Source: a virus. From it: a stretch of 59,913 bases of DNA. The notes below the pieces were generated by a model. The model did not search any database. It was not told where the DNA came from and saw only the letters and a list, made by a program, of their open reading frames with translations. Each line of letters begins with the position of its first letter. The first letter of the stretch is position 1. A program made the translations under genes and the position numbers. The stretch spans positions 1 through 59,913 of the IMG/VR virus record IMGVR_UViG_3300032116_000209; one strand, written 5' to 3'. Shown here piece by piece: positions 2,910-58,207 of this stretch.

Positions 2910-3935
2910 TCAAATATCTGATATTGGTTTGGCATTTCTTAGGTGCTTTCTTTGCTGATAATTATCTAAGTTATGATAGTTTGGATCGTATTCTGTATAT
3001 TTTGTATTAAGGCCACTCTCTCTACAATAATCTAAGACTACGTCTTTGCTAATCTTAAACCTATCTTCATCTTCCAACATTCCAGACAAAAGTTTATTTA
3101 ATCTTAATATAGAATAATCCACATTAGCCCAATAACTATCCTTATTCTTGTCTGCCCAGGGTCTATGAGTATCATTCCTCAATTCTTTCTCTCCTGGATA
3201 TTTTCTAATTGTATGATGATAATATAATTTTGTTGGAATTGCAAAAATTTTCCATCCCTTTGACCAAGCCTGTATTGAGCAATATATCTCTTCAGCCGTC
3301 CAACCAATAGATGTATCAAATGGCACATCCTCAACAAATTCCTTTGAGGCAAAACACCAGGTAAAGTGAATCCAGTAAGACTGCGTAAAATCTTTATCTG
3401 TTGGAACTTCCCTGACATCTGGGAACCAATATCCTGGAGCAAAGTCGTAGCCAAAGTCTTTTGTTACGTCAAGTCTTGGGTAGTAGGTGTTTACTTTTGG
3501 TCCAACATTTTTTTCAAACTCAAGGGTTCCGTCTTCGTTAACCTCAAACATGGGTGACTGAAATGACAGAACTGCCTTTTCAGATCTACTATTTTGTAAA
3601 ATATTGTAGTACTCTTTTATGCAAATTTCGTCCCAATCTTTTTCAAATCTTGTATGACCACAGATATATAAAACATAGTCATAATTAAATGGCAACTCTT
3701 TTGTTGTTAAATCTCGTGCCCAAAGAATGCCCCTGTATTTTGAAAGATCAAACTTTCTGTAAATAATTTGCTCTTCTGGAATAAAACTTAAATCTGAATA
3801 AGAGTCTGGGTAGTGTTCTTCTACTATTGAAAACAAAATACCTTCTTTATTTTTTGCTTTATCATAGCAGTCTTTAACTGTTCCAAGCAGATCTCCCTCT
3901 TTATACCCAATTATCGATACCAATATTTTCTTCAT
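2910..3935 (-). CDS. Glycosyltransferase resembling the GT60/PF11397 (GlcNAc) family
   Basis: A 341-aa protein. Several blocks match my recollection of PF11397, the family of Skp1 hydroxyproline GlcNAc-transferase: ILVSIIGYKEGDLLGTVKDC near the start, then CYDKAKNKEGILFSIV, then YRGILWARDL (about 67-76), then DYVLYICGHTRFEKDWDE (about 86-103), then GWTAEEIYCSIQAWSKGW (about 211-228) and YYHHTIRKYP. At the usual DSH metal motif the sequence reads CGH (about 92-94), so the first acidic ligand appears replaced. The ATG at 3941 lies on the ribosome site AAGGAGGG; the ATG at 3935, seven bases beyond, is the better start. It overlaps the next glycosyltransferase by 35 bases. The fold assignment is good; donor and acceptor are unknown. 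Confidence 0.72.
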   Translation of the reverse strand: MKKILVSIIGYKEGDLLGTVKDCYDKAKNKEGILFSIVEEHYPDSYSDLSFIPEEQIIYRKFDLSKYRGILWARDLTTKELPFNYDYVLYICGHTRFEKDWDEICIKEYYNILQNSRSEKAVLSFQSPMFEVNEDGTLEFEKNVGPKVNTYYPRLDVTKDFGYDFAPGYWFPDVREVPTDKDFTQSYWIHFTWCFASKEFVEDVPFDTSIGWTAEEIYCSIQAWSKGWKIFAIPTKLYYHHTIRKYPGEKELRNDTHRPWADKNKDSYWANVDYSILRLNKLLSGMLEDEDRFKISKDVVLDYCRESGLNTKYTEYDPNYHNLDNYQQRKHLRNAKPISDI

Positions 3936-4632
3936 ATACATCCCTCCTTACCCAAAGTTCGTTATAATTATTTGAACCCTCTAAGTTTATATCCCCACTA
4001 GCAAAATTCTTGGACAGTGCAAAGATATTTCCATCTGGCAAAATAAATCCGTAATTTCTTATTGGGTATTCCCCTGTCAACTGCCTGAAGTCCCCTATGA
4101 TGGTGTCTGTAGGATTGTTGTAATCAACAAAAGACTTTCCAAATGGTATTGGTCCAGTGGGTGCGAGAGAACTCCAGCCGTAGTGTTTTGATTTTACATT
4201 TTCTACAATGCTATTTATTGTTAATTCAAATATTTTATGACCAGGATTTTTTGAATACAGAACACTAGTTTGCATAGCCCAAGATGTTAGGGAATGTCTT
4301 TGATCATCACGAAAAGCCATTAGGCTTTGTGACGGAACAATATGTGTTAACGGTCTATTATGTATATCAAAATAAAATCCACCGTTAAGAAAAAGTATGC
4401 AGAATCTTGCAAGATCGGATTTATAGCAATATGGCTTCAAAGATTTGAAAGCAATAAAAACATCTTTATCAAAATTATTTTTTATCATATCTTCGATTTC
4501 TTCTTGATTCCAAACTTTGTAGTTAAACTCTGGATAAAAATAGTTAAATCTTTTTTTATTTTGCTCTATAAGAAACTTGGCAGCGTCAGGGTATTCTTTG
4601 GTATTTAATATTAGTATTTGATTTATATTCAT
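3901..4632 (-). CDS. Glycosyltransferase of the DXD sugar-binding (Gly_transf_sug/OCH1-like) type
   Basis: A 243-aa protein. The core block is KSDLARFCILFLNGGFYFD (about residues 71-89), followed by IH: an invariant Asp (D73), the LxxxGGxYxD pattern, and a DxH (89-91) in place of the usual DXD that binds the metal and sugar nucleotide. This is the signature of OCH1-like/capsular polysaccharide glycosyltransferases. The ATG at 4632 is chosen over an upstream in-frame TTG. It is encoded just upstream of the GT60-like enzyme and probably acts with it, for example to extend a first sugar. Acceptor unknown. Confidence 0.75.
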   Translation of the reverse strand: MNINQILILNTKEYPDAAKFLIEQNKKRFNYFYPEFNYKVWNQEEIEDMIKNNFDKDVFIAFKSLKPYCYKSDLARFCILFLNGGFYFDIHNRPLTHIVPSQSLMAFRDDQRHSLTSWAMQTSVLYSKNPGHKIFELTINSIVENVKSKHYGWSSLAPTGPIPFGKSFVDYNNPTDTIIGDFRQLTGEYPIRNYGFILPDGNIFALSKNFASGDINLEGSNNYNELWVRRDVYEENIGIDNWV

Positions 4633-4639
4633 TGTTTGC

Positions 4640-5233
4640 CTACTCCGTCCCAACCGCTTTTGACCAATTATTAATTGCCCAGTGTCCTATGCCACAAGCA
4701 TCGGCAACATCGTTATCAGTTATATTTCTATCATAAATTGTGTTTACAAATCTAATGGTTCTCTCTTTTCTTAAATTTCTTTCATAAGTTTTATACCAAG
4801 ATACTGATTTGCCTGGGTGCTGAGATCTAATATACAGTTGTTCATCTTTTGATATTTTTTTGTTTCCTATATAGTTTTGCCATGTTATTGGAGACACCTT
4901 TCCAATTACGCTTGTTCCAGACTGCCCCGCTGCCCCCAAAATAGCGCCCTGAACAAGGGCTAGGTCTGCAGCGGTCTTTGGACTATTCATAAATACGGTA
5001 TGCTCAATAACTATCCCCTCAAAGCCACCATAAAAATCTAAAAATGCTTTTACCTTTTTCCCTGCGTCCATTACTTTTTCATATATATCTTTTCCATCAA
5101 AATTAATTTTTCCAACAGCACCCAATGTTTTTTGTTGGGTATCAAACAAAGCAAATGCAAGACTATTTGTGCTGGCGTCAATAGAGCATAGGTTTTTTGG
5201 AATCAATTCTATCCCCCATTTATTTTTTACCAT
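4640..5233 (-). CDS. RuvC-like Holliday junction resolvase/nuclease
   Basis: A 197-aa protein with an RNase H-like fold. Visible acidic residues are D19 (CSIDASTNS, first strand), E77 (GIVIEHTVF), and D175/D178 in NDVADACGIG, the order and spacing of RuvC. Phage RuvC-like enzymes cut four-way junctions and branched DNA before packaging. The start has AAGGA eight bases upstream. The gene overlaps the zinc-finger gene before it and stands at the end of the recombination block. Confidence 0.78.
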   Translation of the reverse strand: MVKNKWGIELIPKNLCSIDASTNSLAFALFDTQQKTLGAVGKINFDGKDIYEKVMDAGKKVKAFLDFYGGFEGIVIEHTVFMNSPKTAADLALVQGAILGAAGQSGTSVIGKVSPITWQNYIGNKKISKDEQLYIRSQHPGKSVSWYKTYERNLRKERTIRFVNTIYDRNITDNDVADACGIGHWAINNWSKAVGTE

Positions 5234-48302: not shown

Positions 48303-48932
48303 TTAGTGAATCCAGTGTTGTGGAACCATAATCTTTTCACCGCTTTTAACTAGGTGTGCGGTGTGATGATATGGTGGTGATGGTGGGAAAACAATAACGC
48401 TTCCAGCCTTTGGTTTTACTGCAAATGTATAATTTCCATTATGCTGCGCTTCTGCAAAATCTGCTTCTGGGCTTGGATGACTTAAAACTCCTTCTGGAGA
48501 AGCAATAGTGAAAGAAATTTCTCCACCTTCGTAATCATCGTTAAGGTACATAACAAAAGAAACCTTTAGTCTTTCGTCGCCCTCTTGTTGATCAAAGTGT
48601 GCACCCATAAATGTGCCAGGCTGATACTTCTTGATTGGATACATTGGAAATAGTTTTGGCTCATCCGTTATTCCCTGTGCTGCTGCGTAGTCTCTTGCAA
48701 CATCATCAAATGCTTTTTGCAGTGTCTTATAGATATAATCGTTTTTTTCATCTGTGCCTTCTGAAGGAGCAATGGTCTTATCGGTTCCATACACATAATG
48801 CTGACCACTACAAGCCATCCACTCACCCCATGGGTCCTTGTTATCGTTTTCGATTGCATCAACAAGTCTCTTTGGGTCCTCAATTACATTTGTGTAATAG
48901 TAAACCTTTTCTTCAAGTATTTCTCTATCCAT
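48303..48932 (-). CDS. 2OG-Fe(II) oxygenase, prolyl 4-hydroxylase-like (array member 7)
   Basis: A 209-aa jelly-roll oxygenase. Iron ligands H112 and D114 (GAHFDQQ) and H193 (TAHLV), with K200 to bind 2-oxoglutarate. The family block MYLNDDYEGGEISF (about 128-141) and KPKAGSVIVFPP (173-184) match the P4H pattern. It is closest in length to the minimal catalytic domain. Last oxygenase gene before the SDR gene; its start has an AGGAG site. Confidence 0.87.
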   Translation of the reverse strand: MDREILEEKVYYYTNVIEDPKRLVDAIENDNKDPWGEWMACSGQHYVYGTDKTIAPSEGTDEKNDYIYKTLQKAFDDVARDYAAAQGITDEPKLFPMYPIKKYQPGTFMGAHFDQQEGDERLKVSFVMYLNDDYEGGEISFTIASPEGVLSHPSPEADFAEAQHNGNYTFAVKPKAGSVIVFPPSPPYHHTAHLVKSGEKIMVPQHWIH

Positions 48933-48943
48933 CTTATATCTCC

Positions 48944-49606
48944 TTAGTATTTATTTTTTTCGTAAAAGCCTGTGACTTTCATAAAGCCTACAGTAACGTA
49001 CCGTATTGGTCCTTCTCCTACATGTCTTACTCCGTGCTCGTATTCTTCGTTGCCTGGGAAAATGAGCAAAGTTCCTGGTTTTGGCCTCAAGTCTGAATTT
49101 TCTTTATTTATAAAAAATAAAGTTCCATCCTTGTAGTCATCATTGATATATAGTATAGCAGCATATCTAATGGATGGGTCTGTATGCTGGTCCGTATGTG
49201 ATTTTAACTCAACTCCAGCCTGCATTCTTTGAAGAGTTCCAAAACCAGCAAGTTCTAGAGATGGATCTGCCAGTTCTAACAACCTTCCTAGCCTACCCTG
49301 GAGAGTAATGCTTATTGGCTCAGTGACAATGCTTAAATTCTTATCTTCCCAGTTTCTAGTAATCTCAAACTTTCCTTCTGCAACTAGGTTTTCTACATCA
49401 TCTCTTCCAAATTTTTCCATACAGAATCTTGCAAGATTTTTTGTATACTCAATTGACCAATCTTCTTCTGGTGTAACTTCAATTATTTTTAAAATAGTGT
49501 CAAGTTCTTCTGAAGAAATAAAGTTTTCTATAGACAAAACATGATCATGAAAAACCTCAGTTTTATATCCAGCGTTGTCAAATTCTTTTTTTAAGAAAAC
49601 TTCCAT
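48944..49606 (-). CDS. 2OG-Fe(II) oxygenase, prolyl 4-hydroxylase-like (array member 6)
   Basis: A 220-aa protein with H137/D139 (KSHTDQ), H191 (YEHGV) and R202 for 2-oxoglutarate. The block ILYINDDYKDGTLFF (about 141-155) and KPGTLLIFPGN follow the family pattern; the usual GGE is changed to DGT. The N-terminal 110 residues are helical and specific to this member. It has GAGG before the ATG and ends 11 bases before the next gene. Confidence 0.87.
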   Translation of the reverse strand: MEVFLKKEFDNAGYKTEVFHDHVLSIENFISSEELDTILKIIEVTPEEDWSIEYTKNLARFCMEKFGRDDVENLVAEGKFEITRNWEDKNLSIVTEPISITLQGRLGRLLELADPSLELAGFGTLQRMQAGVELKSHTDQHTDPSIRYAAILYINDDYKDGTLFFINKENSDLRPKPGTLLIFPGNEEYEHGVRHVGEGPIRYVTVGFMKVTGFYEKNKY

Positions 49607-50353
49607 TTACAACTCCTCAACTTTATACCTATTTCCATTAGCATCAAGTTTCCACCCTTGCTTTAACAATTCTTGCCACTCGGCTCTTTCGATTTCCTGT
49701 TTGGCTCTTGTTTCTTTCATTTCTGCTGCCCAGGCATCTCTTAGTTCTTGTGGGTATGCATCTTCTTCACGATCATCCCAGAACGAACCTATGGTATACC
49801 TAACACCTTTAGTAATAAGAGTTACTTCATGCATATTATTAAATCCCCCGTCAAATGCAGCAAGCATTCCAACTTTAGGCTGAATAGTTATTTCTTGATC
49901 TGGAAACTGTAAAAGCCCTCCCTCAAAATTATCATTTAAATATAAAAATGCTGCATATCGACTTCTAGTAAAAGCGCCAGAGTGTCCGTGCTCATCTGTA
50001 TTGTCTGAATGTTTTCTTGCATATGCGCCTGGCTCCCATTTCTGAGTATGATACCCAATTTGAGAAATTATCTTGGGATCAAGGTCGTGAACACTTGCAA
50101 CTGCATCAATAATTCCGTTTTTTATTTGTGAAAAAATGTCAGAAGGAAGTCCTTCAGAAATAACATGTTCGTCATTGTCTTGTGGTAAAACCGAAGAGTA
50201 TGATTCATAGAAGGATATCGGCATCCAACTAATTGTTCCAAGTTCTGCATGCTTATCTAAAACCTTAACAAGTTTTGCAGATGTCTCTGCGTCAATAAAG
50301 TTTTCATAAACAACAATGTCTTTGGTTATTCTATTTTTATTTTCTAGGTTCAT
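49607..50353 (-). CDS. 2OG-Fe(II) oxygenase, prolyl 4-hydroxylase-like (array member 5)
   Basis: A 248-aa protein with H115/D117 (RKHSDN), H175 (NMHEV) and R185. The family block FLYLNDNFEGGLLQFP (about 136-151) is present. A charged helical tail of about 50 residues (EMKETRAKQEIERAEWQELL) is unique to this member and could bind a partner. It abuts the next gene with no gap and overlaps the previous one by four bases. Confidence 0.87.
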   Translation of the reverse strand: MNLENKNRITKDIVVYENFIDAETSAKLVKVLDKHAELGTISWMPISFYESYSSVLPQDNDEHVISEGLPSDIFSQIKNGIIDAVASVHDLDPKIISQIGYHTQKWEPGAYARKHSDNTDEHGHSGAFTRSRYAAFLYLNDNFEGGLLQFPDQEITIQPKVGMLAAFDGGFNNMHEVTLITKGVRYTIGSFWDDREEDAYPQELRDAWAAEMKETRAKQEIERAEWQELLKQGWKLDANGNRYKVEEL

Positions 50354-51207
50354 TTTATCCTTCTTTCTTTGTCGGCACTAGTTCTGTTTGGATTTTCGTC
50401 TCTAAACTTTTTTAAAATCTCTTCCTGCATTTCTTTCCATTTTTCTTTGCCGAATTTTTCTTCGTTTTCAAACCATTCTGGTGCTCCAACTGAATATTTT
50501 GTCCAATACATTCTTGCCAAGTATTTTGAATTATTATATGAAGGCATTACTCCGTGAAGATAGATAGAGGTTTCAGACATTAAAAATTCTGGATGTCCAG
50601 AAGGAAATACTAAAACATCTCCAGCCTCTGGCTTGTACATATAGGCCTCTCCATTTGCTATAAAGTCAATTTCTCCTCCATCATAATCATCATTGAAATA
50701 TGTCAAGGCAGTAATTGCAAACTTATGTCCTGGACTTGTTATCGGCTCTCGTATATAATCTGTATGATATGTCATTGCCAACGGATCTTCGACATTAGCA
50801 TGATATCTTGCTATTGATGGGCCAGTAAAAAGCCATTCCTTTATAGGATTTCCATTTTCATCTTTGATTCCTGGAACAATTCTATTTTTATCAAAATCAA
50901 CATTATGCTTTTTTACATAATCTTCTGTCGCTATATAAAAATTATTTAACAATTCTAAAAGAATTTCTTTGTGCTCTTTTTCTTTTTCTGTTTTTGTTTC
51001 AATTGCTTTTGCACCATCAAGTTGTAATACCGTATTATATCCTTTAAAGGTTGGATATATATATTCTCCAAAGTGTGACCACTTTGACCATGGGCTAAAT
51101 AGGCCTTCTATCCCATCCGACTCTTTTAGTATTTTATATATATAGTCAATATCTTTGTATAAACCCTTATACACAAAAACTTTTGGATATATTTCTACAA
51201 CATTCAT
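50350..51207 (-). CDS. 2OG-Fe(II) oxygenase, prolyl 4-hydroxylase-like (array member 4)
   Basis: A 285-aa protein, the longest of the array. Iron ligands H148/D150 (TYHTDY) and H218 (YLHGV); K228 is the likely 2-oxoglutarate ligand. Family block ALTYFNDDYDGGEIDF (about 167-182) and KPEAGDVLVFPSG. The N-terminal 125 residues are a divergent helical part, and the C-terminus is Lys/Glu-rich. Overlaps both neighbours by four bases. Confidence 0.86.
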   Translation of the reverse strand: MNVVEIYPKVFVYKGLYKDIDYIYKILKESDGIEGLFSPWSKWSHFGEYIYPTFKGYNTVLQLDGAKAIETKTEKEKEHKEILLELLNNFYIATEDYVKKHNVDFDKNRIVPGIKDENGNPIKEWLFTGPSIARYHANVEDPLAMTYHTDYIREPITSPGHKFAITALTYFNDDYDGGEIDFIANGEAYMYKPEAGDVLVFPSGHPEFLMSETSIYLHGVMPSYNNSKYLARMYWTKYSVGAPEWFENEEKFGKEKWKEMQEEILKKFRDENPNRTSADKERRIK

Positions 51208-51965
51208 TGGCTATTCCTAATTCCATTATCTGGATCCCAGGCCCTTATTGAATCATCGTTAGGGAAAATTCTATGATATTTTTTATTAAAGTCTGGCTTT
51301 TCTTCTCCAGTGTGCTCTAAAATTTCCCAAAAGAATGGGCAGGTATATCTAGTCCCATTTTTAATTTTTGTTACACCGTGAACATAATTCATATCGCCTG
51401 GGAAAAAGTATGCAGAACCTCTTTTTGGTTTAAACTGTATTCCCTGATTAGGAAAATACAACTCTCCACCTTCATAGTCGTCATTTATATAAAATAAACT
51501 TGCAATATCATAGTTTGGAAAATCATTAGGAGTTCCTGCATCTGGACCAGAGTGTAACTCTTTGTCTGCATGCGGCAATTGATACTGACCAGGATTCCAC
51601 TTTACAATGGTTTGCCCAGTAGGTTGAACGCTAACATTAAAAAAGTTTTCAATTACTGGCTGAAGTTTATTAAATAAACCAACAATTACTGGAACAATAT
51701 TTGGATTATTTTGGTTAAGAGATGGCGCACTTGCAACCCTATCTTTCCAATAATCTGCATCATAAATTACAGTGCCATTTTCATTTTTATGACTTTGGGT
51801 GACATCCCAGATAGTTATACTTCGTGCTGCATTATCTAAAAAGTCAACCTCTTCTTGAGTCATAAAATTTTCTAACTCAACTATATTTTCTGGCCCACTT
51901 CCAAAAAAGCCAGAGGGCGTACTTGATGGTTTTCTTACTACGGTTATGGCTTCTTCTGGATTCAT
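51204..51965 (-). CDS. 2OG-Fe(II) oxygenase, prolyl 4-hydroxylase-like (array member 3)
   Basis: A 253-aa protein with H122/D124 (LPHADK), H186 (YVHGV) and R196. Family block LFYINDDYEGGELYFP (about 137-152), then KPKRGSAYFFPGD. It is the member closest to the textbook P4H core. The ATG follows TGA-TATAAT by only six bases and has no ribosome site, so this gene may head its own leaderless mRNA covering members 3-7 and the SDR gene. Confidence 0.88.
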   Translation of the reverse strand: MNPEEAITVVRKPSSTPSGFFGSGPENIVELENFMTQEEVDFLDNAARSITIWDVTQSHKNENGTVIYDADYWKDRVASAPSLNQNNPNIVPVIVGLFNKLQPVIENFFNVSVQPTGQTIVKWNPGQYQLPHADKELHSGPDAGTPNDFPNYDIASLFYINDDYEGGELYFPNQGIQFKPKRGSAYFFPGDMNYVHGVTKIKNGTRYTCPFFWEILEHTGEEKPDFNKKYHRIFPNDDSIRAWDPDNGIRNSQ

Positions 51966-51971
51966 ATTTAA

Positions 51972-51980
51972 ATTATATCA
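51972..51980 (-). promoter_or_regulatory. Extended -10 promoter inside the oxygenase array, leaderless geometry
   Basis: Minus-strand TGA-TATAAT in the 34-base gap before array member 3, six bases from the ATG at 51965. It splits the array into an upstream block of four genes and a downstream block of six. Confidence 0.5.
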
Positions 51981-51999
51981 TAGGCTTTATTACCTATAA

Positions 52000-52716
52000 C
52001 TATATACCTTTCTCAGTATTATCTTCTACATAAAGTTTTAAAGTTTTTACTTCATGAGATCCTAGACTTTCTCCCTTTTCATTTACAGCATCTCTATACC
52101 AATCTGTCCATTGTCCAGACCTATTAACTTCTTGGGCTGCCTCTCCATACGCTATGTTTGACTTTTCTCTTAGCCTATTCTCATCTTTATACCCGACAAC
52201 TTGAATTTTAGTATTATTTAAATTTGTTAAAGATATTGGAATTATCGTTGCTATAGGGGTGCCTGACTTTATAGTTAGTTCTTGATTTGCTTTTCTTGCT
52301 TTAATTGCTAATGGTAGTGGATTATCATAAAAAGAAGTACTAATAAGATTAGACATTGTTTCAAAGTCTTCATTAAAATAGTTTACTGGGTTAATAGTCC
52401 AAAGACTAACATCCTGATCTGTTCTAAAAACCAATCCTGTATTAAAACTTATAGAGGACTGACCTCTTCCTGAATAAGATCCTTCTGGACTGGACAGGAT
52501 AGTGATATGTTGATCGGTTTGATCGTTTACTCCATCCCAAATAAACTTAATGTCTTCTTCGCAGGAAATATTCCAACCCACAACATTGGCCTGAGTTACT
52601 GGAAAACATCTATATGCATGATTTTCTGATGTAGCATCCATCCAGTCTCTTTTTATAGACATTGGAGATACTTTAAACTTGGTGCCCTGCATTTTTTCTA
52701 CTGAAATATTAAACAT
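52000..52716 (-). CDS. DUF6065-like protein (second copy)
   Basis: About 238 aa, read from the ATG in TAATG at 52716, which overlaps the stop of the preceding oxygenase gene; an in-frame ATG at 52731 is also possible. The segment RDWMDATSENHAYRCFPVTQ (about residues 22-41) then ANVVGWNISCEEDIKFIWDG, with SGTPIATIIPISL further on, resembles DUF6065 as I recall it. The second half aligns by eye with the protein at 53408-54175. No catalytic motif is clear; a cupin-like fold is possible. Confidence 0.6.
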   Translation of the reverse strand: MFNISVEKMQGTKFKVSPMSIKRDWMDATSENHAYRCFPVTQANVVGWNISCEEDIKFIWDGVNDQTDQHITILSSPEGSYSGRGQSSISFNTGLVFRTDQDVSLWTINPVNYFNEDFETMSNLISTSFYDNPLPLAIKARKANQELTIKSGTPIATIIPISLTNLNNTKIQVVGYKDENRLREKSNIAYGEAAQEVNRSGQWTDWYRDAVNEKGESLGSHEVKTLKLYVEDNTEKGI

Positions 52717-53399
52717 TATTCCTGATCCCATTTTGGATCATACATATCTGGTGTATGATACTTTTTGCTATAGTCAAGCATAGTCACAATTGAATACTTT
52801 GTTCCAGAATGAACTGGCATTGCTTGGTGGGGATACATGAAGTTTGATGGGAAAATATAGAGATCTCCAGCCTTTGGTTTAATATTTAAATTTTGTAACC
52901 TAAAGAACAACTCTCCTCCATCATAGTCATCATTTACATACGCAACTAAAGATACTGTGCAGTTATAAGAATATCCGTGGTCGTGGTGCTCCATAAAGTG
53001 CTGTCCTGGACCGTATTTAATAAAGTTAAAAGCCTCCCAATATTTTAGTGGCATAATATTATAGTCTCTGCGATAATCCTCTACTGCTGCTGCCTGAGCA
53101 TCATAAACATCTTGCCAAAGTGCCTGAAGTTTTAGAGAGTCTTCACTCTTATCTGCTTCTATGTCTGTCTTCTTAAATTTAAAGTCAACACAATCTCTAT
53201 AGTCTGGCATTAGTTGTTGATAGCCAACATACGCTGGCATCCAGTGATACCTCTTACCTTCTGGAGACAACTCGCCATACCCAGCAACAGAGCCCAGAAT
53301 GCTTTCTAGTCTATTGATTACATCAAACTCTTTTTTTATAACTCCTCTATAACAAGTTATTCCATTTCCAAGATTTTCTTTTTCTGTCCAAGTTTGCAT
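52716..53399 (-). CDS. 2OG-Fe(II) oxygenase, prolyl 4-hydroxylase-like (array member 2)
   Basis: A 227-aa protein with H138/D140 (FMEHHDHG), H191 (YPHQAM) and K201 (GTKYSIV). Family block AYVNDDYDGGELFF (about 143-156). It is clearly paralogous to array member 1: both read NF-KY then HF--H-DHG--YNCTVS around the first iron ligands. The stop overlaps the start of the DUF6065-like gene, forming a two-gene unit that is repeated just upstream. Confidence 0.88.
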   Translation of the reverse strand: MQTWTEKENLGNGITCYRGVIKKEFDVINRLESILGSVAGYGELSPEGKRYHWMPAYVGYQQLMPDYRDCVDFKFKKTDIEADKSEDSLKLQALWQDVYDAQAAAVEDYRRDYNIMPLKYWEAFNFIKYGPGQHFMEHHDHGYSYNCTVSLVAYVNDDYDGGELFFRLQNLNIKPKAGDLYIFPSNFMYPHQAMPVHSGTKYSIVTMLDYSKKYHTPDMYDPKWDQE

Positions 53400-53407
53400 T
53401 TTATCTC

Positions 53408-54175
53408 CTATTTATACTCTCTTCTTGACCATACTTTGTTCTTGTATACCCCGCCATCTGGCTGACGGAAGAACTGCATGTTCTTAACCATTTTATCATA
53501 TATCTGAGACTGGTCTAAAATATCTATCTCATGTTCCCAATTTTCTCTTTTAAATGGAAGTACCTGTAAGTATGGTGTTCCTGCTGGAATTGTTCCTTCC
53601 CAACCCTCTACTATAAAAAATGGGAAACTTCCCAAAAGGTGTACCTTATCGCTATCTACAACTCCCGTTGTGTTAACAAACGGAAGATCAAATCTATTCA
53701 TAGGAGTCATAAATAGTGCACTATAGCCTTCTGGCAATTCTAATCCCCATGGAGAACTCCAAGCAAAATGATAACCGTAGTATCCTTTGGGGTGTTCAAA
53801 CTGTGGCATTGGTGGTCTTTGAGTGCAAAAGTCTTTATATCTTGGGTCATCAATAGTAACATTTATGATGCCTTGAGAATTTTTAGAAAATGTTAAATCG
53901 CATGGAGTTTTAAAAACATATCCAGTTGCAAACGCATCCATAATGGCTGGACAGGCTTTCCATGTTGGAATTTTTCCATAGTCATCCGTTGTTCCTTCTT
54001 TTGGAAATGGACAAACCTCTTTTGTTGCTTTATAGTATTCTCCATTTGGCATTTTTGCAAATCTGTCTGCATCTTTGTACCAGTCTGGAATTTCTTTTTG
54101 GGTAGGTACAGGAACAGAAATATCTTCTTTATTTAGCCAAGGCCTAAACGATCTAAACTTAGCAACCAAAGACAC
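53408..54175 (-). CDS. DUF6065-like protein (first copy)
   Basis: A 255-aa protein starting with GTG that overlaps the stop of array member 1 (TAGTG). The opening VPVPTQKEIPDWYKDADRFA is Pro/Trp-rich. From about residue 70 it follows the same order of blocks as the protein at 52000-52716: a CPA..MDAF..GYV segment, SPWGLELPEGYSALFMTPMN, then IPAGTPYLQVLPF against SGTPIATIIPISL. It is probably a partner of, or substrate adaptor for, the oxygenase encoded with it; function unknown. Confidence 0.6.
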   Translation of the reverse strand: MSLVAKFRSFRPWLNKEDISVPVPTQKEIPDWYKDADRFAKMPNGEYYKATKEVCPFPKEGTTDDYGKIPTWKACPAIMDAFATGYVFKTPCDLTFSKNSQGIINVTIDDPRYKDFCTQRPPMPQFEHPKGYYGYHFAWSSPWGLELPEGYSALFMTPMNRFDLPFVNTTGVVDSDKVHLLGSFPFFIVEGWEGTIPAGTPYLQVLPFKRENWEHEIDILDQSQIYDKMVKNMQFFRQPDGGVYKNKVWSRREYK

Positions 54176-54888
54176 TACTTGTGTCCTAGTTCATTGATGT
54201 CTGTCATTACAACGACACAGTACTTTGTTCCTTCTTTCATAGGCAATGATGCATGCTCATAAATATAATTTGATGGACAAAGAACAATATCTCCTATTTT
54301 TGGAGTATGGGTATAGTTGTCCATTCTTGGAAACTTAATTTCTCCGCCTTGATAGTCTTCATTTATGTAAACAACAGCAGAAACTGTGCAGTTATACATT
54401 GGCCCATGATCTGCATGGATGTTAAAGTGAGTTCCCTCACCTTCGTATTTTACAAAGTTAAACGCTTCATAATATACTACATTAATTCCCCAGTACCGTG
54501 CATAATCGTCAACACAGAACTTTAACTTTTGATAAATTTCTTCATGAAGATCTAGCAATTCAGCATTATGCTCATCCCTTGGTCCCAAATTCTCTTGTTT
54601 AAATCTAAAATCTACAGCATCTCTAGCCTTTTTAATTGGAATATCAGAATTCGTTACCTTTGCTTCAGACCACTTGTATTTTCCGTTACCGCCCAAGTTT
54701 GACTCAAGAACTTTGATATATCTTTCAGAGTCTTCCTTTGTAAAAGTATTTCTATATAGGTTTATACCAAGTGCTGGGTTTTCAACTAATATGTTGTTGC
54801 CTATAGTTCTTGACGGATATCTGTTTATTGCTGTTTCTGATCTATCCTTAGTAAACCAAGGTGTTTCATTTTCGTCGTAAATTGTCAT
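54175..54888 (-). CDS. 2OG-Fe(II) oxygenase, prolyl 4-hydroxylase-like (array member 1)
   Basis: A 237-aa protein with H148/D150 (FNIHADHG), H202 (YEHASL) and K212 (GTKYCVVV). Family block VYINEDYQGGEIKFP (about 163-177), KIGDIVLCPSN. First gene of the array, behind a TGA-TATACT promoter and an AAAGGA ribosome site. It pairs with the DUF6065-like gene that follows. Confidence 0.88.
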   Translation of the reverse strand: MTIYDENETPWFTKDRSETAINRYPSRTIGNNILVENPALGINLYRNTFTKEDSERYIKVLESNLGGNGKYKWSEAKVTNSDIPIKKARDAVDFRFKQENLGPRDEHNAELLDLHEEIYQKLKFCVDDYARYWGINVVYYEAFNFVKYEGEGTHFNIHADHGPMYNCTVSAVVYINEDYQGGEIKFPRMDNYTHTPKIGDIVLCPSNYIYEHASLPMKEGTKYCVVVMTDINELGHK

Positions 54889-54946: not shown

Positions 54947-55375
54947 TTATGCTGCTGAAATTTCTCTAGTAGCATGGTCATATACGACTTTTGTTCCATT
55001 TACTGCAAAAACACACTTGACCAACAAAACTTCTCCAGAAAATGCTGCGTCATATAGTGCTGCCTTTTCTGAATCAGAATTAACACTAATTCTGTGGATT
55101 ATTTTATTATCACATAGAAAACCATACTGTCGATATGCGTCCTTTTGCTCTTGTGACAATTCAAAAAAATCTGGTTTTGCAGTTCCATCAAAAGACGTAC
55201 CATTCCATGTGGCGCCCATAGTTGCTGTCGACTTGTGGTTATTCAAGTCTATTCCTATGATAGGGAGATTTTTTTCCCACTCAGAATCAAGACGCTCTCT
55301 TAATTCACCGTCACTTCTAAGTGCTGCTATTACATCATAAGTGTTTCCACTATCTTTGACTAATATTGCGTACAT
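54947..55375 (-). CDS. Unknown 142-aa protein between appendage gene and oxygenase array
   Basis: Starts MYAILVKDSGNTYDVIAALR, followed by a helix, strands and a second helical segment (SQEQKDAYRQYGFLCDNKII). No domain recognised and no signal peptide. Two cysteines only. It has its own extended -10 promoter and an AAGGAG ribosome site. It may be a small virion or chaperone protein for the appendage encoded just upstream. Confidence 0.55.
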   Translation of the reverse strand: MYAILVKDSGNTYDVIAALRSDGELRERLDSEWEKNLPIIGIDLNNHKSTATMGATWNGTSFDGTAKPDFFELSQEQKDAYRQYGFLCDNKIIHRISVNSDSEKAALYDAAFSGEVLLVKCVFAVNGTKVVYDHATREISAA

Positions 55376-55412: not shown

Positions 55413-56402
55413 TTAGCATCCACAGCCACCGCAACATGCTGGACATGCTTGCCAACAATAACTTCTTACGCATCCTGAGCAACCGCTGCTGCTAGTAAAT
55501 GATGGTGGGAAGAACGGTGGGAAGAATGGGAAGAATGGGAAGAATGGTGGGAAGAATGGGAAGTAAGGGAAGAATGGGAAGAACGGTGGGAAGAATGGGA
55601 AGAATGGGAAGAATGGTGGGAAGAATGGGAAGTAAGGGAAGAATGGGAAGAACGGTGGGAAGAATGGGAAGAATGGGAAGAATGGTGGGAAGAAGGGGAA
55701 GTAAGGGAAGAATGGGAAGAACGGTGGGAAGAATGGGAAGAATGGTGGGAAGAACGGCGGGAAGAATGGAAAGAATGGGGGGAAAAATGGGGGAAAGAAT
55801 GGAGCAATTGTAGTTACACTACCAGAAGAAGCAGATGTTCCAGAGTTACCATTAGCATTTGTTGCGTAAACGGTGTATGTCTGAGATGTATTTGCTTCTT
55901 GAGAAACTGTTACAGATGTTGAAGCAGTTGAGCCAGTCTTTCCATCTGAAGATGCCCAAGTATATCCAGTAATTGCCTTACCACCATTTGCTGGGGCAGA
56001 CCAAGAAACTGTATCTGCGTCTACTCCTGCAGTTGCTGTTGGTGCAGAAGGTGTTGCTGGAACAGTCGTTGCTGTTACAGAAGAAGACGCTGCAGATGCA
56101 GCAGAAGTTCCTGCAGCATTTGTTGCAGTAACTGTAAATGTATAAGCAGTATTAGATGCTAAACCTGTTACTCTAACTGGAGATGATGCGCCAGTTCCAG
56201 TAAATCCTCCAGGGGAAGATGTAACTGTAAAAGATGTTGCTGCTGGAGAAAGCGCAGGTAATGTAAAAGATACATCTACTGCTCCATTATTAAATGCACG
56301 ACCTGTTCCTACATCTGTCGCACCAGTAATGGTTGGTGTTAATGGCTCCAAAAAGTCATTTGATGCTTGGGACTTTCTACCTGTCTTCTTACCTGCTGCC
56401 AT
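55413..56402 (-). CDS. Fn3 protein with Phe/Pro repeat and Cys-rich tail
   Basis: A 329-aa protein in four parts. Residues about 22-115 and 116-200 are two Fn3-like domains (ASNTAYTFTVTATNAAGTS; AITGYTWASSDGKTGS; QTYTVYATNANGNSG). Residues about 203-300 consist almost only of Phe and Pro with a few Tyr (PPFFPFFPYFPFF pattern, 23-residue period). Residues about 301-329 hold eight cysteines among Ser and Gly (GCSGCVRSYC, ACPACCGGCGC). The first 15 residues are basic. It lies between a fibre gene and the oxygenase array. A surface adhesin or tail appendage is likely; the Pro-rich block is a natural candidate substrate for the hydroxylases. Confidence 0.75.
   Translation of the reverse strand: MAAGKKTGRKSQASNDFLEPLTPTITGATDVGTGRAFNNGAVDVSFTLPALSPAATSFTVTSSPGGFTGTGASSPVRVTGLASNTAYTFTVTATNAAGTSAASAASSSVTATTVPATPSAPTATAGVDADTVSWSAPANGGKAITGYTWASSDGKTGSTASTSVTVSQEANTSQTYTVYATNANGNSGTSASSGSVTTIAPFFPPFFPPFFPFFPPFFPPFFPFFPPFFPFFPYFPFFPPFFPFFPFFPPFFPFFPYFPFFPPFFPFFPFFPPFFPFFPYFPFFPPFFPFFPFFPPFFPPSFTSSSGCSGCVRSYCWQACPACCGGCGC
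55503..55800 (-). repeat. 69-bp tandem repeat coding the Phe/Pro block
   Basis: Units begin at about 55512, 55581, 55650 and 55719 (GAACGG landmarks on the plus strand, spaced exactly 69), each coding 23 residues; shorter degenerate units flank them. One strand is very purine-rich. Such a tract should expand and contract easily and is hard to assemble. Confidence 0.9.
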
Positions 56403-56431: not shown

Positions 56432-58207
56432 CTACGCTGTTAGATCGCCATAAACGACCCAAGTGTTTGCTGCTCTCTTTAGGAGGGTAGCGGAAGACCA
56501 TCTTGTTCTCAACTTTAGTCCAGGAGTTGCGTTTACTGTAACTGATCCGCTTACTGGAGCAATTGTAACCTGTCCTGTGTTTGTTTGAAGAATGTCGATA
56601 GTTGTTCCTATTGGATAGTTTACAGTTGAATCCAATGGGATTGTGAGAGTTGTTGCTGATGTAGAGTCTACCTCAATCAACGAGTCTCTATGAGTTAGTT
56701 GGGAAAGAGCATAGGATGCTGTCTTTTGAACGATAGGAGTTCTTGAAGGAACGCCTTCCTTTGTCTGTGTACCGTCTGAGAATACAACACCTGCAGATGG
56801 AGTTACTGTGGTTGCTTCAAGAGCACCTACTGCAAGGGCATCAAGAGATCCCTCTCCGAATGCTACTGTTGTTGATGGCTCTGTGGCTACATCTTTAAAC
56901 AACTTCCACTTAGCATCTGATACGTCTCTTACGATACCTGCATGCTTTGCAGATCCATCATTATAAGCAACGACAATACCAAGGTCAACTGTATTTGCTG
57001 CATTCTGATGAGCAAGTTGAACCATATTATCTTCGATTGTAATAGATGTTGCGCTTGCATTAAATGTTGTACCATTAACAGTCAAGTTTCCGTCAACTGT
57101 AAGGTTTTGGTCAATTTCTACTGAACCAGTAAATGTTGCACCAGAGAGTGAAGCCTTTGCATCAAGTGCTGTCTGTGTAGCAGTTGATACTGGCTTGTCT
57201 GCATCTGAAGTGTTATCAACATTTGCAAGTCCTACTGAAGACTTTGTGAGTGCTGCTACTGCTGCTGTTATTTCTGCATCAGTATAAGATGCTGCTGCCG
57301 TAACTGCGTCTGATTCTGCTGCGTCTGCATATGCTTCTGTTGCAAGAAGTGCTGTATTGGCAATGCCGTGAACATTCAAAGTTTCAGCATTGTGTGTAGT
57401 TACTGCATCATCTGCATAAGTCTTGGTTGCAACTGTGGAATCAATATCAAACTGGCCTGATCCAGAATTCCAATCAATTCCAACACCAGCAAGTGTTGCT
57501 TGATCTACTTCTGCTCCATTAATTGCATTTGTAAGATCTGTCTGTGTTACTAGATCTGCTGTATTTACAATACCGTGGACATTTTCTGTCTCAGCCTCAT
57601 GAAGACCCAATGCTGAAGCAGCAGCAGTTGCTGCATCATTAACATCGGAAGTTGTTGCAAGAAGTGATGTATCTGCAATACCATGTACTGCTAATGTTAG
57701 TGCCTCATGTGCACCTAGTGCTGCTGAAGCAGCAGTTTCTGCATCATTAACATCTGAAGTTGTTGCAAGAAGTGATGTATCTGCGATACCATGCACTGCC
57801 TGTGTAAGTGACTCGTGTGCTGAAAGGGCTGTCGCTGCTCCTGTTGCTGCATTATTGACATCTCCTGTTGTTGCAAGAAGAGATGTGTCTGCAATGCCGT
57901 GAACCATTGTGGAGGCATTTGTGTGATTGGATACAGTTGTTCCAATTGTTAAATAAAATTGTGGATCATCTCCAACGGCTGCTGCTAGTTCATCAAGGGT
58001 ATTAAGGAGTCCTGGTGCATTATTTACAATGGCTGCTAATTCAGAAGCATTGGCAAAGTACTGTAGTGCAGACCATGTTGAAGAGCCATTACCCATCTTA
58101 AATTTACTTGTGTCAGTTTCAAAACCGATTTCACCTGCTGCGAGAACTGGGTTAGCAGCCGTCCATTGTGCTGCAGTTCCTCTGCGCTGTTGCATTCTTG
58201 TTGCCAT
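56432..58207 (-). CDS. Tail fibre-like protein with 36-residue repeats
   Basis: A 591-aa protein. The N-terminus MATRMQQRRGTAAQWTAANP then LAAGEIGFETDTSKFKMG is the attachment motif of many phage fibre and tropism proteins. Residues about 100-230 are tandem repeats built on VHGIADTSLLATTSDVNDA, likely a trimeric shaft. Residues about 360-480 contain a SVEIDQNLTVDGNLTVNGTT triple-helix-like segment, and the C-terminus is a small strand-rich head (DSLIEVDSTSATTLTIPLDS). A GAGAG ribosome site precedes the ATG. Confidence 0.8.
   Translation of the reverse strand: MATRMQQRRGTAAQWTAANPVLAAGEIGFETDTSKFKMGNGSSTWSALQYFANASELAAIVNNAPGLLNTLDELAAAVGDDPQFYLTIGTTVSNHTNASTMVHGIADTSLLATTGDVNNAATGAATALSAHESLTQAVHGIADTSLLATTSDVNDAETAASAALGAHEALTLAVHGIADTSLLATTSDVNDAATAAASALGLHEAETENVHGIVNTADLVTQTDLTNAINGAEVDQATLAGVGIDWNSGSGQFDIDSTVATKTYADDAVTTHNAETLNVHGIANTALLATEAYADAAESDAVTAAASYTDAEITAAVAALTKSSVGLANVDNTSDADKPVSTATQTALDAKASLSGATFTGSVEIDQNLTVDGNLTVNGTTFNASATSITIEDNMVQLAHQNAANTVDLGIVVAYNDGSAKHAGIVRDVSDAKWKLFKDVATEPSTTVAFGEGSLDALAVGALEATTVTPSAGVVFSDGTQTKEGVPSRTPIVQKTASYALSQLTHRDSLIEVDSTSATTLTIPLDSTVNYPIGTTIDILQTNTGQVTIAPVSGSVTVNATPGLKLRTRWSSATLLKRAANTWVVYGDLTA
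57540..57910 (-). repeat. 108-bp tandem repeats in the fibre gene
   Basis: The landmark GAAGTTGTTGCAA occurs at about 57648 and 57756 and, with changes, at about 57864, giving a 108-bp (36-aa) period; a more divergent copy lies upstream in the gene order at about 57540. Boundaries approximate. Confidence 0.8.

Follow-up and report, generated by a model that had tools for sequence, protein, structure and literature searches.

An oxygenase array in a phage operon may hydroxylate a Phe-Pro repeat protein encoded next door

On what do seven 2-oxoglutarate (2OG)-Fe(II) oxygenases encoded in one phage operon act? The function of such enzymes, carried by many aquatic phages, has been debated since at least 2010; most proposals concern nitrogen metabolism of the host or repair of DNA, and a role in host metabolism has been suggested for the cyanophage enzymes (PMC3037559, PMC9602691). 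The locus analysed here lies in IMG/VR record IMGVR_UViG_3300032116_000209, a 59.9-kb virus record referred to as the window, and comprises seven oxygenase genes, ox1 to ox7, at 48303-54888. Just outside this interval, upstream of the array, lies the gene of a protein with a Phe-Phe-Pro repeat, here called F. The virus encodes both oxygenases and a Pro-repeat protein in linked genes, and we propose that they are related as enzymes and substrate. The locus would then be a self-contained cassette whose oxygenases hydroxylate prolines of the phage's own F protein, a reading to which we give a probability of roughly 0.6. What would be new is this pairing of enzymes and substrate in one cassette, not the paralogue count, and it offers the debate a concrete candidate substrate encoded next to the enzymes.

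Catalytic residues and fold of the oxygenases

The seven genes are separate minus-strand open reading frames (ORFs) with the ends given in a preliminary description of this DNA, and all seven products match PF13640 above the curated Pfam cut-off (E 4e-15 to 6e-8; 33.9-57 bits against a cut-off of 27), confirming the count made there. Each protein retains the HxD motif, the distal His and a Lys or Arg about 10 residues further on, and the earlier judgement that all seven appear catalytically competent is borne out as far as sequence can tell. The same His-Asp-His-Lys/Arg set is kept in 843 of 851 distinct relatives from fetched loci with all four positions aligned; locus counts here and below come from capped database scans and are samples, not totals. 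For each oxygenase gene, comparison with divergent orthologues gives a ratio of non-synonymous to synonymous substitution rates (dN/dS) of 0.02-0.21, which indicates purifying selection. Given this selection and the conservation among relatives, the seven intact oxygenases are not a product of chance. Pairwise local identities among the seven are about 22-41%. Their divergence had been described as mostly N-terminal, which holds for the differing N-termini, but the C-terminal extensions differ as well.

The one member modelled, ox6 (mean pLDDT 95), has a double-stranded beta-helix fold with Z-scores of 16.7-20.6 to prolyl-4-hydroxylase (P4H), PHD2, OGFOD1 and P3H1 structures. Its top match is an algal P4H with a bound (Ser-Pro)5 peptide (Z 20.6, 2.0 Å over 173 residues), further matches include PHD2-type enzymes, Pseudomonas putida P4H, PBCV-1 vCPH, OGFOD1 and P3H1, and prolyl hydroxylases fill nearly all top rows of the structural search. 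The PDB sequences closest to the oxygenases are Bacillus anthracis P4H and the procollagen lysyl hydroxylase LH3. Because of these fold matches and nearest sequences, the enzymes are assigned to the protein prolyl (or lysyl) hydroxylase class, with the exact reaction predicted from sequence and model. The Pfam profile search agrees with the P4H-type assignment proposed earlier: no AlkB match is listed for the seven proteins, PhyH is not one of the families matched at E 0.1 or below, and no TET/JBP match exceeds the cut-off, only ox5 touching Tet_JBP (22.3 bits against 34.9).

The algal enzyme, Cr-P4H1 (PDB 3gze, 2jig; the peptide is present in 3gze), takes extended Pro-rich repeats as its substrate. 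It differs from ox6 in being a cellular enzyme for cell-wall glycoproteins, with about 19% identity. PBCV-1 vCPH (PDB 5c5t), a viral P4H, shares the fold of the ox6 model (Z 18.0), but it is a single enzyme of a eukaryotic algal virus, whereas here six to nine paralogues stand in a phage operon beside an FFPP-repeat gene. We know of no adjacent substrate cassette in PBCV-1.

The F protein and its linkage to the array

F, whose repeat is of the FFPPFFPFFP type, is the most Pro-rich protein of the window, with 16% Pro against a mean of 4.5% (standard deviation 2.6%). It probably belongs to the virion, as a fibre or surface protein. F resembles collagen-like phage tail fibres in being repetitive, Pro-rich and encoded beside other fibre genes, but it differs from them in that its repeat shows no Gly-X-Y triplets and consists of FFP and FFPP units, mostly Phe-Phe-Pro, without Gly. 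Searches with an fn3 probe that excludes the repeat recovered F relatives with FFAPPG, FFSPPG and HFPPFFPP repeats. Thus, the repeat type changes among relatives while Pro beside aromatic residues stays, as does the pairing with oxygenases. Pro-Pro-Gly, the classical context of collagen P4H, is present in some of these repeats. The C-termini of F relatives vary between Cys-rich, Hint-like and short forms, and a Hint-like (self-processing) domain ends many of them (for example in loci L122, L127, L146, L172, L187 and L283). A tblastn search with F itself gave no match, low-complexity filtering limiting the search. The repeat DNA is also open in other frames at 55466-55813, and the resulting ORFs of 113 and 104 amino acids (aa) are shadows of the repeat that could be miscalled as genes.

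The linkage of F to the array is seen from both sides. On the substrate side, the viral collection was searched with an FFP-repeat DNA pattern, using no oxygenase sequence. Downstream sequence of 1.5 kb or more was available for 95 FFP genes, and for 82 of these an oxygenase gene starts within the next 2 kb downstream on the same strand. In control contigs retrieved by an unrelated pattern, which replaced a first control pattern with one match only, any PF13640 gene was present in 0 of 34 loci and in 1 of 33 whole records. For 20 FFP loci with no array, or one oxygenase, in the fetched stretch, the whole records were searched; 10 of the 20 contain oxygenases, and the ten records over 28 kb carry 6-13 oxygenases (seven records), one (one record) or none (two records).

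On the enzyme side, a non-redundant cassette was defined as at least four oxygenases plus a DUF protein (DUF_a or DUF_b, Table 1), giving 102 cassettes in the fetched loci. F lies directly upstream in 38 of the 40 that have 3 kb of upstream sequence. As for the exceptions, the contig edge of L278 carries an F-protein C-terminus of the Hint-like kind, and L241 looks like a different phage. Other cassette neighbours are kept less: the 142-aa ORF between F and ox7 in 10/40, and the downstream short-chain dehydrogenase (SDR) and class II ribonucleotide reductase (RNR) in 8/20 and 14/20, respectively. With the fn3 probe, 17 of 48 array records yielded F relatives; among those longer than 18 kb the figure was 15 of 26.

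Two further proteins accompany the oxygenases. DUF_a is found in 93/102 and DUF_b in 101/102 cassettes, the definition of which itself requires a DUF protein. The predicted structure of DUF_a (pLDDT 88) is similar to dUTPases (Z about 10 over 119 residues, 13% identity; Foldseek E 8e-4). Distant matches to DUF_a occur in tailed haloarchaeal viruses, and no annotated oxygenase lies near the DUF_a relative in the one such virus looked at. DUF_b found no match in isolate phages.

Distribution of oxygenase arrays

Scanning IMG/VR for the motif Y-x-N-D-D-Y-x-G-G gave 108 further loci, of which 48 have at least three oxygenases. Six to nine oxygenases in the same order recur in many contigs, the order F-7-a-6-b-5-4-3-2-1 is conserved across cassettes, and a related 107-kb record holds 15 oxygenases. 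Cyanophage S-SCSM1 encodes 24 2OG-Fe(II) oxygenases (PMC9602691). The oxygenase array is a recurring feature of metagenomic phages, and its number of genes alone is not new. The preliminary description had called the array unusual, which these counts contradict, and the kind of observation it had named as speaking against its view, similar arrays in many phages, has in part been made. A nucleotide search with the array found no match among isolate phages. Literature searches turned up no paper that describes DUF6065 or this cassette, most subscription journals lying outside their reach.

S-SCSM1 is comparable in having many divergent PF13640 genes in one phage and seven oxygenases in two groups (ORF240-243 and 248/249/251) beside tail-fibre genes. 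It differs in that its oxygenases represent four Pfam subfamilies and are scattered across a T4-like phage genome. The 25.8 kb examined showed no FFP protein, and the short tail fibre ORF245 (L381:10880-12145), with RQP/RVP repeats beside four oxygenase genes, is a single anecdotal parallel. S-SCSM1 is an isolated cyanophage with an existing virion proteome.

Proposed mechanism and competing explanations

We hypothesize that the cassette combines one substrate gene, that of F, with a set of P4H-type Fe(II)/2OG oxygenases and the constant accessory proteins DUF_a and DUF_b. The oxygenases would bind Fe(II) via His-Asp-His and 2OG via Lys or Arg, accept the Pro-rich repeat in an extended conformation and, presumably ahead of assembly, hydroxylate prolines in it. 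Several enzymes may be kept for differing repeat contexts, which we would guess to be FFP-P, FFP-F, YFP, the first or second Pro of PP and the 3- or 4-position, or alternatively for stepwise modification. The likely effect would be a stiffer, less greasy repeat, or hydroxyl groups available for contact or further modification. The preliminary description had assigned each enzyme a different substrate; the evidence points rather to one shared substrate, the F repeat protein upstream. Its view that virion proteins are a likelier target than metabolism is supported, and the array does lie between fibre genes and head genes (37-41 kb).

If F is indeed hydroxylated, phages would make hydroxyproline-containing structural proteins, a group of genes classed as auxiliary metabolism would partly serve virion maturation, and multi-enzyme prolyl hydroxylation would be open to study in a compact system. 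A more far-reaching picture, which we put forward only tentatively, is a hydroxyproline-rich aromatic-Pro virion fibre in a widespread phage lineage, with six to nine hydroxylases acting on different repeat positions, two dUTPase-fold helpers and, in some members, hydroxyls perhaps glycosylated by the phage's transferase. Such a fibre might be likened to collagen, extensin or mussel-foot protein, as their phage counterpart.

Several observations weigh against hydroxylation of F by the array. Eleven of the 26 array records over 18 kb lack an F gene, apparently representing other kinds of phage, and two FFP-bearing records, G005 (38 kb) and G010 (53 kb), lack an oxygenase; the remaining FFP records without one are mostly short fragments. 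The P4H of PBCV-1 hydroxylates Pro peptides, yet purified virions were without detected hydroxyproline (PMC7019647). Enzyme repertoire showed no convincing relation to the repeat features Cys tail, Tyr and length across 31 non-redundant cassettes (about ten tests, lowest P 0.01). Outside the cassette family, Pro-repeat genes beside oxygenases were not significantly enriched (7 loci vs 4.2 expected), which gives no support, beyond the cassette, to a general rule that phage oxygenases adjoin Pro-repeat genes. Finally, part of the linkage could be due to shared descent, since typable cassette records mostly belong to one deep phage lineage (capsid protein 37-97% and terminase 50-89% identical). 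Carried to its limit, this would mean that F and the array adjoin only through the colinear late region of that lineage, with no functional link. The capsid and terminase genes shared by most typable records are consistent with this, but F stays where the 142-aa ORF and the SDR are lost. The pairing also occurs in G093 (76.5 kb), where oxygenases lie downstream of an FFPP fn3 protein and the capsid and terminase proteins of the window find no match. G093 is the best counter-example to linkage by shared descent alone, and we consider pure colinearity the least probable of the alternatives.

The other alternatives accept a function for the array and differ in its target. Most deserving of attention, albeit unlikely, is that the oxygenases modify other virion proteins, for example the Mtd_N fibre or the 1244-aa protein, and that the neighbourhood of F is a fibre module only, in which F may be unmodified. 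The oxygenase genes do sit in the fibre region, and the two S-SCSM1 groups flank tail-fibre genes without an FFP protein, but the remaining fibre proteins of the window are low in Pro and F is kept beside the array more than the other scored neighbours. Modification of host proteins, for example EF-Tu or those of the ribosome, as a means of seizing translation would fit structural neighbours of ox6 such as P. putida P4H in complex with EF-Tu, the EF-Tu-modifying B. anthracis P4H and OGFOD1; it seems quite improbable, as it would not account for six to nine paralogues that stay with a Pro-repeat gene of the fibre region. We give still less credence to action on DNA or nucleotides (hydroxylation, repair), or to a lowering of 2OG that shifts host nitrogen sensing as proposed for cyanophages. 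PHROG names that include DNA endonuclease, the weak Tet_JBP match of ox5, the dUTPase-like fold of DUF_a and the 2OG and DNA-repair roles proposed in PMC3037559 would favour this. Against it, Pfam and fold indicate protein prolyl hydroxylases, the array lies outside the replication module, and the PHROG names probably derive from neighbouring denV genes.

Genome context and minor observations

Records of close relatives, with capsid proteins 78-97% identical, are 109-119 kb long, and the window is therefore probably about half a genome. It codes for tape measure, portal, protease, capsid and terminase proteins, the portal, protease and capsid genes lying at 37-41 kb. The best isolate matches of its capsid protein are Streptomyces phages, at about 41%. 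The minus-strand order runs from tail-fibre genes through the Mtd_N fibre, the F gene, the 142-aa ORF, ox7, DUF_a, ox6, DUF_b, ox5, ox4, ox3, ox2 and ox1 to the SDR, the RNR, the 1244-aa protein and the portal (coordinates in Table 1). A tRNA scan of the window found none, and a promoter scan gave signal at shuffle level and was uninformative. The single close match in bacterial genomes that bears on the host is a 5.3-kb contig in a Chitinophagaceae metagenome-assembled genome, which is probably misbinned phage DNA.

Table 1 Features of the oxygenase cassette and other genes of the window
Feature	Position	Strand	Family or profile	Remarks
PF11397 glycosyltransferase	2910-3941		PF11397	
ox1	48303-48932	-	PF13640	Oxygenase, HDH+K
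ox2	48944-49606	-	PF13640	Oxygenase, HDH+R
ox3	49607-50353	-	PF13640	Oxygenase, HDH+R
ox4	50350-51207	-	PF13640	Oxygenase, HDH+K; missing from many otherwise complete cassettes
ox5	51204-51965	-	PF13640	Oxygenase, HDH+R
DUF_b	52000-52731	-	PF19541 (DUF6065)	Conserved cassette member, not an oxygenase; distant DUF_a relative
ox6	52716-53399	-	PF13640	Oxygenase, HDH+K; model pLDDT 95, P4H fold
DUF_a	53408-54175	-	phrog_7084	Conserved cassette member, not an oxygenase; predicted dUTPase-like fold
ox7	54175-54888	-	PF13640	Oxygenase, HDH+K
142-aa ORF	54947-55375	-		Not constant among cassettes
F protein	55413-56402	-	PF00041, E 1e-9	Proposed substrate of 329 aa with two fn3 domains, an FFP/FFPP repeat and a Cys-rich C-terminus
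F Cys-rich tail	55416-55496	-		TSSSGCSGCVRSYCWQACPACCGGCGC; relatives have other Cys-rich tails or a Hint-like domain instead
F repeat	55497-55802	-		102 residues beginning PFFPPFFPPFFPFF (56 Phe, 42 Pro, 3 Tyr, 1 Ser); likely hydroxylation target
Mtd_N tail fibre	56432-58207	-	PF18454, E 9e-14	Neighbour that puts the F gene in the fibre module

Two glycosyltransferase genes lie side by side at 2910-4653, one of PF11397 (N-acetylglucosamine, GlcNAc) and one of PF04488. PF11397 is also the family to which the Skp1 hydroxyproline GlcNAc-transferase belongs. A PF11397 gene was found in only 3 of 23 array records, which speaks against an obligatory hydroxyproline glycosylation; it would be an occasional extra step at most. 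In L278, a sulfotransferase-like and an Asp/Asn beta-hydroxylase-like gene, recognised by eye only, are located between the F-type tail and the array (L278:489-1731). The related phage of locus L301 (record G096, 101 kb) carries many in-frame stops in its terminase, F and oxygenase genes, which may reflect decay of the element, errors in sequencing or the use of another genetic code.

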